From contig NC_019738.1 in assembly GCF_000317515.1 (NCBI RefSeq), forward strand, positions 5,978,001-6,042,000: 64,000 nucleotides of DNA. Direction: 5' to 3'. Below, in pieces: positions 23,629 to 34,907 of the stretch. The first letter of the stretch is position 1. Every line of letters starts with the position of its first letter. The translations under genes and the position numbers were made by a program. Below the pieces are notes generated by a model. The model was not told the origin of the DNA and ran no database searches. It saw only the letters and a program-made list of their open reading frames with translations. This stretch comes from Allocoleopsis franciscana PCC 7113. Its GTDB lineage: Bacteria > Cyanobacteriota > Cyanobacteriia > Cyanobacteriales > Coleofasciculaceae.

Positions 23629-26600
23629 TCAAAGATTGAGACAAAGCTGAACATACTCAACTTGTTCACCTAAATCCGCAGCCCCTGCTGTATCATCCAC
23701 CCATTTTGAATTCGGATAAAGCCGCTGATCAGAAATATCTAAAAGCTGAGAGCCAAACGCTAACCATTGTTGAAATACCTCAAAGCGACCATCTTCAGGA
23801 TGAACCACTTGATACACTCGTACCCGATTTAACCGCTTGCTCTCACGACCGATACACCGGATACCATAGCCGATTTTATCCAAAAGGCGTCTAATAATAA
23901 TGATCGGAGTCGCATTTTGTGCCAGTCCAATTCCCAAAGTCGTCTTGATCGCAGCACGGTTAGAAAGGGCCAATTTCGCCATTGCCTTCAAGTCTTCATC
24001 CGTACTTCTTAACTCTCGTCCCTGATCTTCCAGCAACACCGGAACCCCTAAAAGTTCCATGGTGCCAATCGTGGCTCCCAATTGGGAACGGTTGAAATCT
24101 GGCAGGAAGATACTACCACCCCCCAACTCAATTAGGCGACGCGCAAAAGCGGCATCCCGTTGAGCCAAATAGTCCCGCCCCAAGGTGAGAAAGTAATGAA
24201 GTAACAGCTTAAAGTACCAGCCCTCGTCATCCTTGGCGACCAATGGAGGCGTAACCGGTATACCATAGCGCAACTTTAACTCATGCTTGCGAAGTGCCCG
24301 TCGTTGGAATGGAGTTTTGACCAACTGTTTTTGTAGCGATTGATACTGACGTACACTGAGATCTGGGGCGTAGGCGATCGCTTCACACTCTGCCTGATAA
24401 TTTTGGTTTCTTACCGCCGCGATCGCCATTGTCAGCGAATTCGTTTCACTTTCAGCCTCATCCCCATCCAATTTTAGATTTTGGATGTTGGATGTTGGAT
24501 TTTTCGCTAACCGCTCAGCCCCTACCTTTCCTAAGCCACAATCTTTCAAGGGAGCTTCAACGATATGATGACCTTCCGCTAGCAGTGCTGCCAGCACAGA
24601 TTCTCGGTACTTGTGCATCGAGGCATTATGCCGAACCGCCATCTTAGCCCAACACAACAGAGATTCTGCCTGAAACCCCATCTCCAAATCATCCAAGGCA
24701 TCAAAGTCCGATTGCTGTAATAACTTAATATTGAGCTGCGTCAGACTTTGCCCCGATGTGAGCAACCCAGGAATTGAAGTCGAACCATTGCCAACCCGAT
24801 TAAAACCATAAGCTGCCACCCACAGACATCGAGGCACATTTTCACGCACTCGTCCTAGCGCCTGACGCACTGAGTTCTCACTTTGAATTCCTTGAGCGAT
24901 ACCCCAAACCGAGGTGAAATGCCCTCGCAGATCAATACTCACTCCCGTTTCAATCGCCGGACTCGCTAAGACAATGTCATAATTCGGCAAAACCTGATTT
25001 AGGTTGCTCATGCATCCATAAGCCGGATGAGATGGCTCGGCTAGGGATTCCGCATCAATCCGCAGTATCTTGGCTGTGGGGAATCGCTGTTGCAGGTAAG
25101 CTTCCAACGTGCAAGTCCCCCACTGACTCCCCCGTTTCTGAGCCGAGAGACAGACAAAGGGTTTTCCCCCGTCTTGAATGTGCCGTTCCAAGTCTTGCAC
25201 CAATCGTTCTGGCTTATTTTCTGTGTAGTGATGAACCTGCCAGGATTCACTCGCTCCGGGTTTCCAATCATTCTGAACAATCAAGGGTTGGAGAGGAACG
25301 CCTGATAGAGAAATCAGGTAATCCATCGAGATGTCACTCAAGTCAGCATCGGCGACAAAAACCTGTCCTTCGCCCCCCAATACATTCTGCATCAAGGTTT
25401 TCAGCGATTTGAGGATAGCCACCCGATTGTTACTACAGGTACTAGAGTCCAACCCATGCCACAAAACTTGCTCGACTTCATCAATAATCACCACCCCATC
25501 CGACCAGTTGAGAGCCTCAAATTGAGCTTGAGAGGTGGGATGCAGGGAGTCAATGCAAAGACCGTACCCTAATGCTGTACCGGAGTCTGAGCAACGCACC
25601 TCAGTAATATAGTTGAGTCCGAAACGTTGGCATAGAGACTCCACCAGGCGCACTCGATGACCAATCACCAAAACCCACTGCTTGCGCTCTAGGGCTTCTT
25701 TGACAATACCTTCTAAAAACTGGGTCTTACCCGTGCCTTTGGGAGATTTGATGCCAATCAGTTTGGCGTCCTTCGGTATAGAAAGTTCTCCCAGATAGCG
25801 TTGATTGAGCTGTACATCAGCCAGATAAGTCAGGCGAGACAAAGATTGCGCTTTCCAAGTATCGAGCGGTACTGCCCTCTCGTAAGCTTCGTCTAATGCC
25901 GCTTGACCGTTTTCCGCAATGAGGTCATCAATTCCTTTCCCTTGTTCTGGATTCCAAGTGATAATCTTGACAGAACATTTTTTTTGTGTTAATAGATAGC
26001 CCAATTGTCGGATGGCGGCGTTGACGGCCTTGATGGCAGTGGGTTTTGTGTCTTGGTCGAAGGCAATATAAATGGTTCTCCCTGGGGTTGCCAGTTTGAG
26101 TAACTGGGGGATGAGACGAGACTTGCCGATGCGATTCCCCTCATTGTCTCGTGGCACGCGATAGCCACCGAATACTCCTGGTAATGCGACCGCAGCATAA
26201 CCCCCTGTGAGTAATGACCCGGCCTTTTTGGCTCCCTCGGTAATGCACAAGGGAATTTCCGGGTGTTCGATCAGCCACTGCCAAAAGCCAAAATCCGGTT
26301 GATTGGCGTCGATTGCTGCGGGTAGCACGGGGATTTGGTAGCGATCAGCAATGCGCTGCCATAGGTGAAGCGGAACGCGCAGCGCAAACAATCCTGTGGG
26401 TGCTAGGGGAGGATGTTCATACTTAATTAACTTTCCAGCATTCACACTACGACGAGGCACACTAGGTTTAAAACAGCCCCAGAGGTCGTCTTCACCCGTG
26501 AGTAGGTCAATCCCGGAACACCACCAACCTCCCTGTTCTGTGTGTTCATAACGCTTGAGGATGTGGTGGCTCACTCGACCATCATTCCGTCTTTGTAGTG

Positions 26601-26736
26601 CATCGGCGTAAAGTAAATAGTCGGATGGGCAAGAGCCGTTTAAAGGTATAACGTTAAGGCGGGTTAGCTGGTCATCGACAGCAGCGGCGTCCCACTCTTG
26701 GAGATAATTCACAGTGTTGGCGATCGTGTTGGTCAT
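23629..26736 (-). CDS. plasmid-type replication protein, CyRepA1 family (DUF3854 primase-like plus helicase)
   Basis: The 1035-residue protein combines a DUF3854/Toprim-like N-terminal half with a helicase-like half. The Toprim acidic residues are visible: E167 in CITEGAKKAG, and D227/D229 in YIAFDQDTKP. The Walker A loop is SPKGTGKT (331-338), a DExx-type Walker B is in VVIIDEVEQV, and an arginine-finger-like QALGRVREN follows. This order matches the cyanobacterial plasmid replication protein family named CyRepA1, known from the Synechocystis plasmid pSYSA. The family acts at a plasmid origin. Here the gene sits among core chromosomal genes, with no partition or resolvase genes beside it. 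A short tandem repeat has entered the frame at 24465-24502 (residues ~745-758). Confidence 0.85.
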   Translation of the reverse strand: MTNTIANTVNYLQEWDAAAVDDQLTRLNVIPLNGSCPSDYLLYADALQRRNDGRVSHHILKRYEHTEQGGWWCSGIDLLTGEDDLWGCFKPSVPRRSVNAGKLIKYEHPPLAPTGLFALRVPLHLWQRIADRYQIPVLPAAIDANQPDFGFWQWLIEHPEIPLCITEGAKKAGSLLTGGYAAVALPGVFGGYRVPRDNEGNRIGKSRLIPQLLKLATPGRTIYIAFDQDTKPTAIKAVNAAIRQLGYLLTQKKCSVKIITWNPEQGKGIDDLIAENGQAALDEAYERAVPLDTWKAQSLSRLTYLADVQLNQRYLGELSIPKDAKLIGIKSPKGTGKTQFLEGIVKEALERKQWVLVIGHRVRLVESLCQRFGLNYITEVRCSDSGTALGYGLCIDSLHPTSQAQFEALNWSDGVVIIDEVEQVLWHGLDSSTCSNNRVAILKSLKTLMQNVLGGEGQVFVADADLSDISMDYLISLSGVPLQPLIVQNDWKPGASESWQVHHYTENKPERLVQDLERHIQDGGKPFVCLSAQKRGSQWGTCTLEAYLQQRFPTAKILRIDAESLAEPSHPAYGCMSNLNQVLPNYDIVLASPAIETGVSIDLRGHFTSVWGIAQGIQSENSVRQALGRVRENVPRCLWVAAYGFNRVGNGSTSIPGLLTSGQSLTQLNIKLLQQSDFDALDDLEMGFQAESLLCWAKMAVRHNASMHKYRESVLAALLAEGHHIVEAPLKDCGLGKVGAERLAKNPTSNIQNLKLDGDEAESETNSLTMAIAAVRNQNYQAECEAIAYAPDLSVRQYQSLQKQLVKTPFQRRALRKHELKLRYGIPVTPPLVAKDDEGWYFKLLLHYFLTLGRDYLAQRDAAFARRLIELGGGSIFLPDFNRSQLGATIGTMELLGVPVLLEDQGRELRSTDEDLKAMAKLALSNRAAIKTTLGIGLAQNATPIIIIRRLLDKIGYGIRCIGRESKRLNRVRVYQVVHPEDGRFEVFQQWLAFGSQLLDISDQRLYPNSKWVDDTAGAADLGEQVEYVQLCLNL
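24465..24502. repeat. short tandem repeat inside the CyRepA1-like gene
   Basis: The tract carries tandem TTGGATG units and an ATTTTAGATTTTGGATG core. The repeat type is a common intergenic element of cyanobacteria. Here it is in frame and encodes NPTSNIQNLKLDGDE, a polar loop that adds no stop. Confidence 0.7.
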
Positions 26737-30171: not shown

Positions 30172-30831
30172 TTAGAGACTATCTGGATCGATATTCAATT
30201 CACGCAATTTCGCCGCCAATCGTTCAGCACGTTGGGCTTCTTGTTCGGCACGTTGGGCTGCTAATTCCCGTTGTTCCTCCAATTCCAAATAAGAAAGGAA
30301 CTTTTGTCCATCGGGTCGATATAACTCTAACCCTTCTTCTGTTAATTCAAATCGAACTCCTAAGCGAGGACTAACCCAACCTGACATCGGTTCGATTACT
30401 TCTAATAATCCTTCAATTCGTTGCCAACCCGTCAATTCTTTGTCATCTGGATCGTAGAGGTAATATTCTTCTACTTCGTAGCGATTATAAAAGGCTAGTT
30501 TTTTAGCCATTTTTGTCTGGCTATCGCTGTACGAGCGGATTTCAAAGACGACTTGTGGAGGGATATTATTCTCTTTCCATTGGAGATATGAACGTCTATC
30601 TCCTTTGGGTCTGCCAAAGACTACCATCGTATCAGGGGCTTGGCAAATTCTGTTATTGCCTTCAACGGGATACCAAAGTAAGTCACCTGCAATGAATACA
30701 TTGGGGTCATCTTTAAACAGAGCATCACAACCTCCCTTGATTGTTGTAATCCATTGGTACTGGATTGTGCTGTCTGCCATTGGTTGACCGTCGCTGGAGG
30801 GGTAAATTATTTCTTCTGTAGTGAGTTTCAT
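30172..30831 (-). CDS. Uma2 family endonuclease-like protein (DUF820)
   Basis: The protein is 219 residues from ATG 30831 (MKLTTEEIIYPSSDG); an upstream ATG at 30846 adds five. The PD-(D/E)xK-like Uma2 core is visible: APDTMVVFGRPKG, QVVFEIRSYSD, KMAKKLAFYNRYEVEEYYLYDPD. The last 40 residues are a charged coiled coil (EEQRELAAQRAEQEAQRAER) ending in LRELNIDPDSL, a tail common in cyanobacterial Uma2 proteins. The family is very numerous in cyanobacteria and of uncertain function. Some members are thought to be mobile-element associated nucleases. It is the last gene of the minus-strand block starting with the NACHT gene. Confidence 0.88.
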   Translation of the reverse strand: MKLTTEEIIYPSSDGQPMADSTIQYQWITTIKGGCDALFKDDPNVFIAGDLLWYPVEGNNRICQAPDTMVVFGRPKGDRRSYLQWKENNIPPQVVFEIRSYSDSQTKMAKKLAFYNRYEVEEYYLYDPDDKELTGWQRIEGLLEVIEPMSGWVSPRLGVRFELTEEGLELYRPDGQKFLSYLELEEQRELAAQRAEQEAQRAERLAAKLRELNIDPDSL

Positions 30832-30853
30832 AATATTCAAACACAAAAGTTGT

Positions 30854-31297
30854 CTACTTGATCATGCGCTGTTGTGCTGCTGGCGATGGATATCTACCAA
30901 CTTCTATTAAAGTCTGTCGATCTAAAATCCGGTCTTCGTTGTTAAACTCTAGAATTCGTGTTGTTACTTCTCCAATGTCTGTGAGGGGTTGAATTACAGC
31001 TTCATCGAGTCGGAAGTGTTCTCCCCAAAAGTCTCGACGTGGGTTGAAAAAACGGACAAGTTCTCCAGTGCGCCAAACTATTGACCCTAAATCAGTACCT
31101 TTCTGAAGGTTACAAAAAATACAGGCATAAGCGAGGTTATCTTCTGTTGTAACTCCACCATGCTTCACGCTGATAATGTGGTCAACTTGATAACTTGAAG
31201 ACCTATCTGCTTCTGCAATTAGGCAATATTCACAGATGCGATCAGCACGTTCAGCAACTAAATGCCGCAGTTGTTCACTAATATAAGGACGAGGCAC
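30854..31297 (-). CDS. HNH endonuclease
   Basis: The 147-residue protein has a complete HNH domain: a first zinc-knuckle CEYC, VDHIISVKHGGVTTEDNL (catalytic DH and later N) and a second knuckle CIFCNLQKG. The C-terminal part (TGELVRFFNPRRDFWGEHF...) is typical of the cyanobacterial group that pairs with a small helical protein. Metal-dependent DNA cleavage is expected. The gene is 8 bp downstream of the 84-residue protein gene and lies 22 bp before the Uma2 start, so translational coupling is likely. Confidence 0.92.
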   Translation of the reverse strand: MPRPYISEQLRHLVAERADRICEYCLIAEADRSSSYQVDHIISVKHGGVTTEDNLAYACIFCNLQKGTDLGSIVWRTGELVRFFNPRRDFWGEHFRLDEAVIQPLTDIGEVTTRILEFNNEDRILDRQTLIEVGRYPSPAAQQRMIK

Positions 31298-31305
31298 TTG
31301 AATTA

Positions 31306-31560
31306 TTATTCAGCTTGAATGTACGTATAAGCTCGTGCTTTTGCCAGAGTCATTATATGCTCTAGTGTGAGAAAATGGTCTAATTCTCTCTTTTCCTCTG
31401 GTGTCAATTCGCCCGTTTGGTGTCTGTAAACCAGGTCTTCTAGACGTTCTTGTGCTGCTGTTGATAGTTTAAAAGCGATAACGCTTTGCGGAGTGGTTCC
31501 AGCAGCAATGAATTCAATCATTTCATCGTAGACTTTGGTTGTCTTTACAGATGTCGTCAT
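31306..31560 (-). CDS. 84-residue helical protein paired with the HNH gene
   Basis: The protein begins MTTSVKTTKVYDEMIEFIAAG and has a segment LSTAAQERLEDLVYRHQTGE followed by LTPEEKRELDHFL, which I associate with small cyanobacterial proteins encoded next to HNH nucleases. It looks all-helical and has no visible DNA-binding motif. The arrangement (small protein first, nuclease second, 8 bp apart) resembles a toxin-antitoxin order, but no toxin-antitoxin family is recognised. A control or adaptor role for the nuclease is inference. Confidence 0.75.
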   Translation of the reverse strand: MTTSVKTTKVYDEMIEFIAAGTTPQSVIAFKLSTAAQERLEDLVYRHQTGELTPEEKRELDHFLTLEHIMTLAKARAYTYIQAE

Positions 31561-31585
31561 GAGTTTATCTCTCTTTTTTATAATT

Positions 31586-32389
31586 TTAAGCCTCTATTTT
31601 TGCCAATTTCTTGTTAGCAAACTCCCGCACTTTCTCATCTGGGTCATTTTCTGCTCTGTCCTGCAAGAGGGGTAGAGTCTGGGGATGGTCGGGATATTGC
31701 TTGATAATGGCATCAAGTGCTACTTGCCGAGGGTTGTTTTCCCAGTTCTCTTTACGTTCAAAGGAGTCATTGAGGGCGCAGTTGCACAAAAATTCAAACA
31801 TCCAAGGCTCATTCTTCCAGCCACGGGCTAACTCCCGCACTAGAAAACTTCGCACTCTCCAATCTGGATCATTTTTTGCTCTGTCGCGCAACAGTGGTAG
31901 AGTCTGAGGATGATCAGGATATTGATTGAGGATTGCCGTTAGGGCTGCATACCGAGGATGATTAAACTTCCAATATTTCTCATACGCCCAATCATTAAGA
32001 ACTGTACAATCCTGGCGCTTGAAAGGATCGTTGACAGCACACTCGCACAGAAATTCAAAAATACCAGTTTCGTGTTTCCAACCTTTACTTAGTTCCTGCA
32101 CCGCTGTTCGTCGTAAACTTGAAACTGGATCAAACTGAGCACAAGTTTTAAGTAAAGGTAGGGTATCTGGGTCATCTTTCCAGCCTTCTGCTAACGCTAG
32201 TATTGCACCGTATCGCACATTCATATTCTCATCAAACAAAGCGTAATCTTTTAACCAGACTAAAGTTTTTAAATCCTCTTTCCATCCCCTAGCTATCTCT
32301 ATCACTGCTGTTGAATGTTCCCCCTTTGAATTGTTACCACTCAATGCATATTTTTCAGCCATTTTAATATTTTTTGGTCTTCTCTCCAA
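31586..32389 (-). CDS. HEAT-repeat ORF, probable C-terminal part of the NACHT protein
   Basis: The frame (TTG at 32389; first ATG at 32362) encodes HEAT-like repeats of about 45 residues with a shared core GWK..P.TL.LL...A..D (AEGWKDDPDTLPLLK, SKGWKHETGIFEFLCECA, ARGWKNEPWMFEFLCNCA). The NACHT ORF upstream ends in the same kind of repeat, cut by a stop: WREDQKILKWLKNMH. Joined through a -1 shift at the A5 run (32351-32355) the text becomes WLKKYALSGNNSKGEHSTAV, which aligns with the next repeat WLKDYALFDENMNVRYGAI. I therefore think the two ORFs are one protein. The frame has no start signal of its own that I can see. Confidence 0.85.
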   Translation of the reverse strand: MERRPKNIKMAEKYALSGNNSKGEHSTAVIEIARGWKEDLKTLVWLKDYALFDENMNVRYGAILALAEGWKDDPDTLPLLKTCAQFDPVSSLRRTAVQELSKGWKHETGIFEFLCECAVNDPFKRQDCTVLNDWAYEKYWKFNHPRYAALTAILNQYPDHPQTLPLLRDRAKNDPDWRVRSFLVRELARGWKNEPWMFEFLCNCALNDSFERKENWENNPRQVALDAIIKQYPDHPQTLPLLQDRAENDPDEKVREFANKKLAKIEA

Positions 32390-34770
32390 GTCCTGGCAAT
32401 TGCTTTAACTGCTCGACTGCGAATTCCCACAATTAGCATATATTCTTCAGTTCCTACCGTTTCGTAATATCCATAAGCAGCGATTTTTTTCAGGTGATTG
32501 AGTAACTGAGTAGCGATATTTGTTGAGAGATTCCTCACCTCTGAAAGACACTCAGCCGCCAAAAATAGATTGATAAACTTTTGTGCTTCGCCATCCAAAG
32601 CCATCAAATACTCAATAATTTCCCCTGCAAAGCTAGTATCAATCATTCCGGCAATCAACCGCAGCACTTCATGCCAAGACTCATCCTGCCAGTGCTTGCC
32701 AAAAACTTCCGTTTTGAGTTCTTCAAGCGTCAAACCCCCTTCAAGTCCGCGTTTCCCAAACCGATCAACAAACTCCGAAGCACAGAAGTATTCTAAAAAC
32801 GTCCGATGCACAAACCCATAGGAATCACCACCCAGAAAACACAAAATAAAGTTGCGACTCCGTAGTTGTTCAACCAGCAACCTGGCAACCGTTCTCGCCT
32901 CACTGACTTCTATACTTTTCAAATAACCAGTCAGAATCTTTTCTAAATCCTCCCCCCGAATCAGATTACCCGCCAAACCCTGATCTGCGGCTTGCATAAA
33001 GTAGGCAACCTGACGCAGCATCGCCTGCTTATCCTTATAATCAATCGCAACCGAATCAATTCTCGGATGTTCTAGTAATTTCTGCTCCACATCCCACTGA
33101 TGCAGCAAAACTCGCGACGCTTGATTGTACAGTTCCGGTCTATCTCTGGGTAATTCTTGATTGCGGTTCAAAATCGCCATCATCGTCAGCAGCAGGGGAT
33201 TTCCCGCCAGTTCCCCAATCGCTGAAGACGTTTTAATTGCCTGTTGCAGTCGCTCCCGTTTTCTAACTTTATCTGCCTCATCGGTAAACGTTAACTCATG
33301 CCATCGATGGATAAAATCCTGAATTTGCTCTGACTCTAAATCTTGCAGCATGAAGTGACGAAACTGGGCATCTCGCAGCCGTTGCGGCTTGTAGCCAATA
33401 ATGCGAGAAGTCAAAATTACCCGCACATTGGGATAATCATTCGTGAAGCGATGGATATCAGTAATTACCTCCTCCCGTTGCACCGGATCGAATACCTCAT
33501 CCAATCCATCAAACATCACCAAAACTTTGCCAGATTTGAGGCGTTCGTGGAGTTCATGTTGATTGAGGCGACAAATAACGCTGCCTTTGTGGCAGAATTC
33601 GAGAAAATCTTTGCATTGTCCAGAGTTGCGATCGCGACTATAACTCCGCAATTCAATCAGCAACGGAATCGGCTGAGAAATAACATTATTGAGGGGCGTT
33701 CTTGCCCAATTCAACGCGATGTATTGCAACAACGTAGACTTCCCAGAACCTGGGTCGCCCAAAATTACAATGTAGTTGCACCCTGCATTTACCCCCCCTA
33801 GCCCCCCCTTGTTAAGGGGGGGAACCGGAACAAAATCTTGCTTCTGTCCCTTACTAAGAGAGAGCGAATCTTGCTCCCCCCTTACCAAGGGGGGCTGGGG
33901 GGGTAATCGATCGCTCTGAAGGTCATTAACAACATCCAAAACCGATCGCACAGGCTGTTGATAATAAACCTGCTTGTATCGTTCCCACTCCTGTGGGTCA
34001 AATTCTGCCTCAAGTTCATTACTTTCCCTCAGCCGTTTTTGATGTTCTTTAGGAATCTCGTAAACTTGATGTAAAAAATCCTGGCATTCGCGTACATTTT
34101 GTGCTATAAATACTTGCCATACCTTGAGTTTTTCTCGATAATCATAAACAGTCGTATCTAAACTATCTAAATTAAGATTGGCATATCGCTCTCGAATTCC
34201 TTCCTGATATCGCCGCAAGTCAAATTCAGGAACAATTCCAGCAAGCTCTTTAGTATTTTTCGCTGTTGCTTCAATATTTTGTGAGTCCAGGATAGCGCGT
34301 AACTGAGGTGACTCCCGGATAATGGCTTTAACTTTATTGAGATAAGGCTTATTAACTTGTTTCCAGCTAAAATCATCCGGCAGAGGTAACAAGTTAAGCT
34401 CATGCCAGATTTTTGCTAATTTCTTCGTATCTAAACCTTGGCAATCATCTTTAAAAGCGCTTCCCAGAACCTCTTTAACAGATTTATTTTTAAGAAACTG
34501 CTTTAACGGTTCAGTATACTGCTTTTGTTCTGCCTCAGAAAGGTCTGCAACTTCCAACTGCTGCTGCACCAGTTGCAGAAATTCTTTAATCGCTTTGCCG
34601 ATCGCAATATTTACAGGTTCTTTGTCGGGTAGAAGAACGTGTTTCAGCGAATCTTTGAGGAAGTCTTTGGCAAAATCTTTAGCGGCATCCTTTGCCAAGT
34701 CTTCGAGAATGGGCTTAAAAATAAATCCAACAGTTTGAGCAACTCCCCAGGCAACTAATAAGTCCACCAT
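32341..34770 (-). CDS. NACHT-domain STAND NTPase, C terminus frameshifted
   Basis: The 809-residue ORF has an N-terminal helical domain with amphipathic repeats (DLAKDAAKDFAKDFLKD), Walker A GDPGSGKST at about 338-346, Walker B in VLVMFDGLDEV, the sensor/arginine region ILTSRIIGYKP, and winged-helix-like segments up to about 700, ending in HEAT-like repeats. This is the architecture of bacterial NLR-like proteins (bNACHT), several of which act in anti-phage defence by oligomerising after sensing a signal. Residues ~289-327 are an inserted repeat-derived segment. The ORF ends in a premature TGA (see the HEAT ORF). The promoter should lie in 34771-34907, where a dispersed hairpin repeat also sits. 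Function in defence is inference. Confidence 0.9.
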   Translation of the reverse strand: MVDLLVAWGVAQTVGFIFKPILEDLAKDAAKDFAKDFLKDSLKHVLLPDKEPVNIAIGKAIKEFLQLVQQQLEVADLSEAEQKQYTEPLKQFLKNKSVKEVLGSAFKDDCQGLDTKKLAKIWHELNLLPLPDDFSWKQVNKPYLNKVKAIIRESPQLRAILDSQNIEATAKNTKELAGIVPEFDLRRYQEGIRERYANLNLDSLDTTVYDYREKLKVWQVFIAQNVRECQDFLHQVYEIPKEHQKRLRESNELEAEFDPQEWERYKQVYYQQPVRSVLDVVNDLQSDRLPPQPPLVRGEQDSLSLSKGQKQDFVPVPPLNKGGLGGVNAGCNYIVILGDPGSGKSTLLQYIALNWARTPLNNVISQPIPLLIELRSYSRDRNSGQCKDFLEFCHKGSVICRLNQHELHERLKSGKVLVMFDGLDEVFDPVQREEVITDIHRFTNDYPNVRVILTSRIIGYKPQRLRDAQFRHFMLQDLESEQIQDFIHRWHELTFTDEADKVRKRERLQQAIKTSSAIGELAGNPLLLTMMAILNRNQELPRDRPELYNQASRVLLHQWDVEQKLLEHPRIDSVAIDYKDKQAMLRQVAYFMQAADQGLAGNLIRGEDLEKILTGYLKSIEVSEARTVARLLVEQLRSRNFILCFLGGDSYGFVHRTFLEYFCASEFVDRFGKRGLEGGLTLEELKTEVFGKHWQDESWHEVLRLIAGMIDTSFAGEIIEYLMALDGEAQKFINLFLAAECLSEVRNLSTNIATQLLNHLKKIAAYGYYETVGTEEYMLIVGIRSRAVKAIARTWREDQKILKWLKNMH
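33790..33906. repeat. in-frame palindromic repeat inside the NACHT gene
   Basis: The plus strand holds two CCCCCTTGTTAAGGGGG- or CCCCTTACCAAGGGG-like palindromes. Translated on the minus strand they give the repeat-derived words PPQPPLVRGEQ and PVPPLNKGGLGG, which I know as peptides arising when this intergenic cyanobacterial repeat enters genes. The insertion keeps the frame and lies just before the nucleotide-binding domain. Confidence 0.8.
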
Positions 34771-34846
34771 AATACCCGCGTCTGCCTAACTCGGTTGATT
34801 CTCGGAGTATAACTAATTGCTTGAGTTCAATACTCAGGCTGAATTC

Positions 34847-34892
34847 AAGTCCGCCTACGCGGACTTCGTTTGTGGACGCGCGACTTTAGTCG
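34847..34892. repeat. dispersed hairpin repeat AAGTCCGC..GCGGACTT and CGACTTTAGTCG
   Basis: AAGTCCGC (34847-34854) pairs with GCGGACTT (34859-34866) with a CTAC loop, followed by a second small hairpin CGACTTTAGTCG (34881-34892). This two-hairpin arrangement is a familiar dispersed repeat of cyanobacteria. It sits between the NACHT start and the MFS gene's 3' end. Confidence 0.7.
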
Positions 34893-34907
34893 TTAGGCGT
34901 TTTGGCT

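Follow-up and report, generated by a model that had tools for sequence, protein, structure and literature searches.

A frame-broken NACHT gene, an HNH toxin-antitoxin-like pair and a Uma2 gene: a probable mosaic in Allocoleopsis franciscana PCC 7113

A compact minus-strand block in the cyanobacterium Allocoleopsis franciscana PCC 7113 carries a broken NACHT gene, a gene for a small helical protein, an HNH nuclease gene and a Uma2 gene. We lean towards reading this block as a mosaic, in which a STAND immune gene has interchangeable toxin-antitoxin (TA) neighbours and the modules are inherited separately, rather than as one fixed defence system. What is new is an apparently unnamed HNH toxin-antitoxin-like family, to which the small and HNH genes would belong and which is linked to NACHT genes repeatedly but loosely. 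The window, that is, the whole stretch of DNA analysed, comprises 64,000 nucleotides of contig NC_019738.1 (positions 5,978,001 to 6,042,000) in a genome of 7.97 Mb and 9 contigs. The block consists of four genes, the first of them broken, rather than five, and its features, in window positions, are as follows.

32341..34770, minus strand: 5′ part of the NNH2-NACHT-HEAT gene, 809 aa (Pfam NNH2 1.8e-67, NACHT 1.8e-15); homologues are longer single ORFs
34153..34701, minus strand: NNH2 (NACHT N-terminal helical domain 2), residues 24-206 (PF22734, 1.8e-67)
33778..33912, minus strand: in-frame repeat insert in the linker before NACHT, residues 287-331
33295..33774, minus strand: NACHT NTPase domain, residues 333-492 (PF05729, 1.8e-15)
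32348..32356, minus strand: shift of the reading frame by one base at a short run of As, from frame -3 to -2 relative to eight homologues
31586..32389, minus strand: out-of-frame HEAT-repeat 3′ part of the broken NACHT gene, 267-aa ORF (HEAT_2, 2.8e-18)
31306..31560, minus strand: 84-aa protein, all-helical in the AF2 prediction and, from its pairing with the HNH gene, a probable antitoxin or inhibitor of the HNH protein
30854..31297, minus strand: HNH nuclease, probable toxin, 147 aa (HNH, 1.7e-11), with conserved HNH and CxxC residues
30172..30846, minus strand: Uma2 (PD-(D/E)XK-like) gene, 224 aa from a TTG start (Uma2, 4.3e-15)

The ORF coordinates and Pfam searches bore out the first-pass annotation in its description of five minus-strand ORFs, with their spacing, frames and motifs. 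The 809-aa and 267-aa ORFs overlap by 49 bp, and gaps of 25 bp and 8 bp separate the 267-aa ORF from the 84-aa ORF and the latter from the HNH gene; the Uma2 gene follows the HNH gene after 7 bp when counted from the TTG start, or 22 bp from the in-frame ATG at 30831. Both the P-loop NACHT NTPase domain and the NNH2 N-terminus are present in the 809-aa ORF, and the Uma2 protein exceeds its curated cut-off (PF05685, 56.1 bits vs 27), while the 84-aa protein gave no Pfam match above a curated cut-off. Promoter and terminator scans of the block came out near the shuffled expectation. The spacer between the MFS gene and the NACHT gene (34771-34907) contains a short palindromic-looking repeat (cgaagtccgcgtaggcggactt).

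The NACHT and HEAT ORFs had initially been listed separately; both are indeed present, but alignment to homologues makes them the two pieces of one split gene. When eight homologues were compared directly, the alignment followed frame -3 as far as the 809-aa ORF extends and then frame -2 through the 267-aa ORF, and the same eight homologues are single ORFs of 955-1349 aa in their own genomes. The 267-aa HEAT ORF also aligns to the C-terminal part of the NACHT proteins of loci L037, L038 and L039. These alignments join the 809-aa and 267-aa ORFs into a single NNH2-NACHT-HEAT gene whose frame changes by one base near 32,350, close to the junction of NACHT and HEAT. The C-terminal sensor repeats are not in the same polypeptide as NACHT in the window, whereas they are in frame in the homologues; since each homologue compared is one uninterrupted ORF, the HEAT end, which is the presumed sensor, has probably been lost from the window NACHT protein. 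A sequencing error is a possible source of the frameshift. Programmed frameshifting is not favoured, as none of the compared homologues changes frame and, by eye, the site does not look like a canonical slippery heptamer. At the other side of the NACHT domain, homologues found in the order-level search match residues 1-286 and resume at about residue 332, so that the 45-residue linker 287-331 is absent from them. This segment (33778-33912) is an in-frame, iterated G/C-run repeat of the CCCCCC...GGGGGG type, copies of which occur across the genome.

The small and HNH genes, as judged from gene order, are a two-gene module of their own, conserved on the same strand with a short gap. Among 291 genomes of the order, 150 matched the small protein and 95 matched the HNH protein at E <= 1e-30. 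The small gene lay directly upstream on the same strand at 90 of the 124 HNH matches in these related genomes (median of 18 nt between aligned ends), a count for which the listed small matches reach down to an E of about 7e-10 only, and other nearby arrangements of the two genes were seen at just 2 of the 124. When only the best 40 of the 124 HNH matches are considered, 37 have a listed small gene upstream, and one of the three exceptions (G265) has it at a longer gap. Most of these pairs occur without a NACHT gene. The pair is also present in Chloroflexi, Acidobacteria and Cyclobacteriaceae, and the small gene alone was matched in a Lokiarchaeota MAG. Cyanobacterial plasmids yielded 18 small-gene records, at least 17 of them with an HNH gene directly behind, usually annotated as 'hypothetical protein' and 'HNH endonuclease', whereas phage genomes yielded no HNH relative at 1e-10. 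The A. franciscana genome itself holds three more pairs (L034, L035 and L036, on G000 C1 near 5157058, 5253046 and 186899), in which the small protein is longer, 120-128 aa, and no related NACHT gene is adjacent in the stretches read.

The two genes do not decay alike. At 80 loci found through the small gene, 43 HNH genes were intact and 21 were broken or partial; another 11 loci had no HNH gene, and at 5 it is cut off by the end of a contig. The small gene thus stands without an intact HNH partner at 32 of the 80, in a sample where its own intactness is partly built in and where synteny within g13 and within Nostocales inflates locus counts. Because such a sample favours intact small genes, the HNH side was examined as well, and there an HNH gene without the small gene is rare. 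A small gene kept beside a broken or missing HNH gene, with HNH rarely alone, is in terms of gene content the pattern of an antitoxin and its toxin. Both genes are under purifying selection, with median dN/dS values of 0.21 (small) and 0.15 (HNH), and the catalytic and zinc residues of the HNH protein are conserved: C22, C25, H40, N54, C59, C62 and N63 are kept in 95% or more of 48 intact pairs. Across these same 48 pairs the pairwise identities of the two proteins co-vary (Mantel r 0.72, 0 of 2000 shuffles), some of which shared descent alone would give. Several pairs adjoin HicA/HicB, ParE/RelE or DUF433-DUF5615 genes. The first-pass annotation had proposed the small protein as an adaptor or inhibitor, and it is the inhibitor part of that proposal that fits the pairing and the asymmetry. 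When the window pair is compared with those of g13 loci L073, L142 and L157, the HNH proteins are 80-82% identical and the small proteins only 45-49%, a mismatch which suggests that one partner of the pair was replaced. In Microcystis (L229-L231), a shortened small-HNH pair is surrounded by DUF433, DUF5615 PIN-like and nucleotidyltransferase genes in one array.

For the 84-aa protein of the window, AF2 predicts four helices (pLDDT 87). A fold search returned no PDB match below E 0.5, the best being VIA with Z 5.6, which is not enough for a helical protein, and in the short form no antitoxin fold or DNA-binding domain was recognised. TAL-effector matches of the small-protein profile were judged to be a repeat artefact. 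Longer paralogues, mostly of 111-128 aa and including the three in this genome, have an extra N-terminal segment; one of 18 such long forms matches the CopG-like RHH_5 family, weakly (6.7e-04), and the AF2 model of a long form, of low confidence at the N-terminus, is without the strand. No named or curated family was found for the small protein, and with the HNH nuclease it apparently constitutes an unnamed family of the toxin-antitoxin type, as far as gene pairing and decay tell.

How far does the NACHT gene belong with this pair? A NACHT-HEAT gene is followed by the small-HNH pair at 24-29 bp in L037-L039, L073, L142 and L157, and at about 70 bp in L175; the HNH gene of L037 is a remnant only. 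The close arrangement recurs in other genera and families. Many Nostocales loci have HicAB or RelE-type genes between the NACHT gene and the pair, and most NACHT relatives are without the pair altogether. On a FastTree phylogeny of 86 NACHT rows, having the pair as neighbour falls in separate clades and needs 10 changes, 7 of them forced by starred branches; the rows were chosen partly through the small gene, and the tree shows repeated gain or loss rather than frequency. We also took 59 genes that had been found through NACHT and had enough downstream sequence, and identified the nearest ORF on the same strand within 400 bp behind each. This ORF was the small gene in 6, Uma2 in 6, HicA in 2, HicB in 1 and DUF433 in 1, although several of these 16 cases are one syntenic locus in one genus and the independent number is lower, by our reading about 6 to 8. 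As a control, 93 other genes from the same loci had 47 such ORFs, and none of the 25 families listed for these was TA or Uma2; about 50 further families fall outside those 25, so a few TA or Uma2 genes are possible among them. TA or Uma2 genes fill the slot behind NACHT more often than they follow neighbouring genes. The HNH gene is nevertheless broken or absent at 15 of the 27 assessable NACHT-linked loci, and examples such as L178/L037 (1002 aa) and L215 (1218 aa) have a long NACHT ORF without a break; this speaks against an essential role of HNH as effector of NACHT.

The Uma2 gene is probably an independent neighbour, to judge from where its relatives lie. There are 88 Uma2 matches in this genome, and the nearest relatives of the window copy (94%, 85%, 84% and 79% identical) stand away from NACHT, small and HNH genes in the stretches read, the closest of all being solitary. 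However, NACHT genes accompanied by a Uma2 67-76% identical to that of the window are common in g13, where L073, L142 and L157 hold all four genes. The gene order thought at first to be a single set is conserved elsewhere in part: NACHT with the small-HNH pair recurs, and a fixed set of four proteins including Uma2 is not supported. The surrounding site also differs between species. In the sister species G133 the MFS-side and moaA-side flanks are found at 93% DNA identity on different contigs (L154 with the MFS-guaA side, L155 with the moaA-rpsD side) and the block is absent; no clean empty site was seen there. By this comparison of flanks, the site is rearranged between the sister species and the locus is variable.

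The most direct competing explanation is one integrated defence system, in which the NACHT/HEAT protein would sense infection and act through the HNH nuclease, an effector kept in check by the small protein. The close spacing of NACHT and the pair in several clades speaks for it, as do the four-gene loci of g13 and the precedent of the Microcystis orthocaspase MaOC1, which acts on an adjacent TA pair by cleaving its antitoxin (PMC7935541) and indicates that such control of TA is possible in cyanobacteria. However, most NACHT relatives lack the pair and most pairs lack NACHT, the HNH gene is broken or absent at more than half of the assessable linked loci, with an unbroken NACHT in examples such as L178/L037 and L215, and the window NACHT gene is itself frameshifted. 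We consider this explanation unlikely, and the original proposal of one block or operon is not supported as a fixed four-gene set, since NACHT, the pair and Uma2 mostly occur apart. A looser version, which we would call quite improbable, makes NNH2-NACHT-HEAT an immune platform that swaps downstream TA plug-in effectors (small-HNH, HicAB, RelE-type, DUF433-PIN, Uma2), the STAND protein detecting infection and the toxin then being released.

It is rather doubtful that the pair is instead a stand-alone nuclease unit of defence or restriction, with the small protein as a positive partner such as a DNA-recognition or assembly subunit. The HNH protein does match PtuB profiles, weakly (best 3.7e-07), and pairs do adjoin NACHT genes, but many loci retain the small gene without HNH, known TA units share arrays with the pairs and an ATPase partner is missing from most loci. 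Decay would explain the frameshift and the repeat insert in NACHT, and the absence of the block from the sister species, with flanks on different contigs, could be taken the same way; the block would then be debris, a pseudogenised NACHT gene with chance neighbours and no present function. That the small, HNH and Uma2 ORFs are intact, that dN/dS is well below 1 in relatives and that the neighbourhood recurs make this very improbable.

Under the mosaic reading, the first module would be an NNH2-NACHT-HEAT STAND gene, by kinship an oligomerising infection sensor, with its HEAT end cut off by the frameshift. The second would be the pair, in which the upstream 84-aa helical protein may bind and neutralise the HNH nuclease; if the small protein were lost, the HNH protein would be freed to cut nucleic acid and growth would stop. 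The third would be the Uma2 gene, unrelated to the others. That TA units collect behind NNH2-NACHT genes would most simply be put down to read-through expression and addiction favouring their staying; alternatively, they are possibly dispensable auxiliary effectors.

Each module has known relatives. Like the bacterial NLR-related antiphage (bNACHT) proteins, for example bNACHT25 (PMC12169576), the window protein has a central NACHT, a C-terminal repeat region and the STAND logic of N-terminal, NACHT and sensor parts. Unlike bNACHT25, it has a helical NNH2 N-terminus in place of a PD-(D/E)XK nuclease, the nucleases of the window are separate genes and its HEAT sensor end has fallen out of frame; the sensing of phage by NACHT has been established with other bNACHT proteins (PMC12169576) and not with that of the window. 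The pair resembles type II TA systems (HicAB, ParDE/RelBE, VapBC) in having two genes with the small one first, a spacing of about 10-25 bp, an occurrence on plasmids and chromosomes, an antitoxin-like small gene that is kept when the nuclease decays, and a place in TA arrays. It differs from them in that HNH is absent from the toxins of the 2009 survey (0 mentions, PMC2701414) and that the small protein is in no curated antitoxin family, its inhibition of HNH being one that we infer. Septu (PtuA-PtuB) likewise has an NTPase gene near an HNH gene, but the window has NACHT/STAND instead of the PtuA ATPase, an extra small gene and a weak HNH-PtuB match; the best PtuA match of the NACHT protein (0.0012) covers the P-loop only (residues 332-356). 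The Uma2 protein has the PD-(D/E)XK-like domain of its family (COG4636), which is very abundant in cyanobacteria and described as a likely solo toxin there (PMC2701414), and the window copy shows nothing unusual, following HNH as in some g13 loci. A search of open-access papers turned up no NACHT-small-HNH system. If our reading is right, a very common cyanobacterial pair, also found outside cyanobacteria, would be an unnamed TA-like family, and TA modules standing repeatedly behind NACHT would raise a testable question: do bacterial NLR-type proteins command these modules, or do the modules ride along? Near the block, on the minus strand at 23629-26736, lies a gene for a 1035-aa protein, the start of which is conserved near moaA in G133 (L155).
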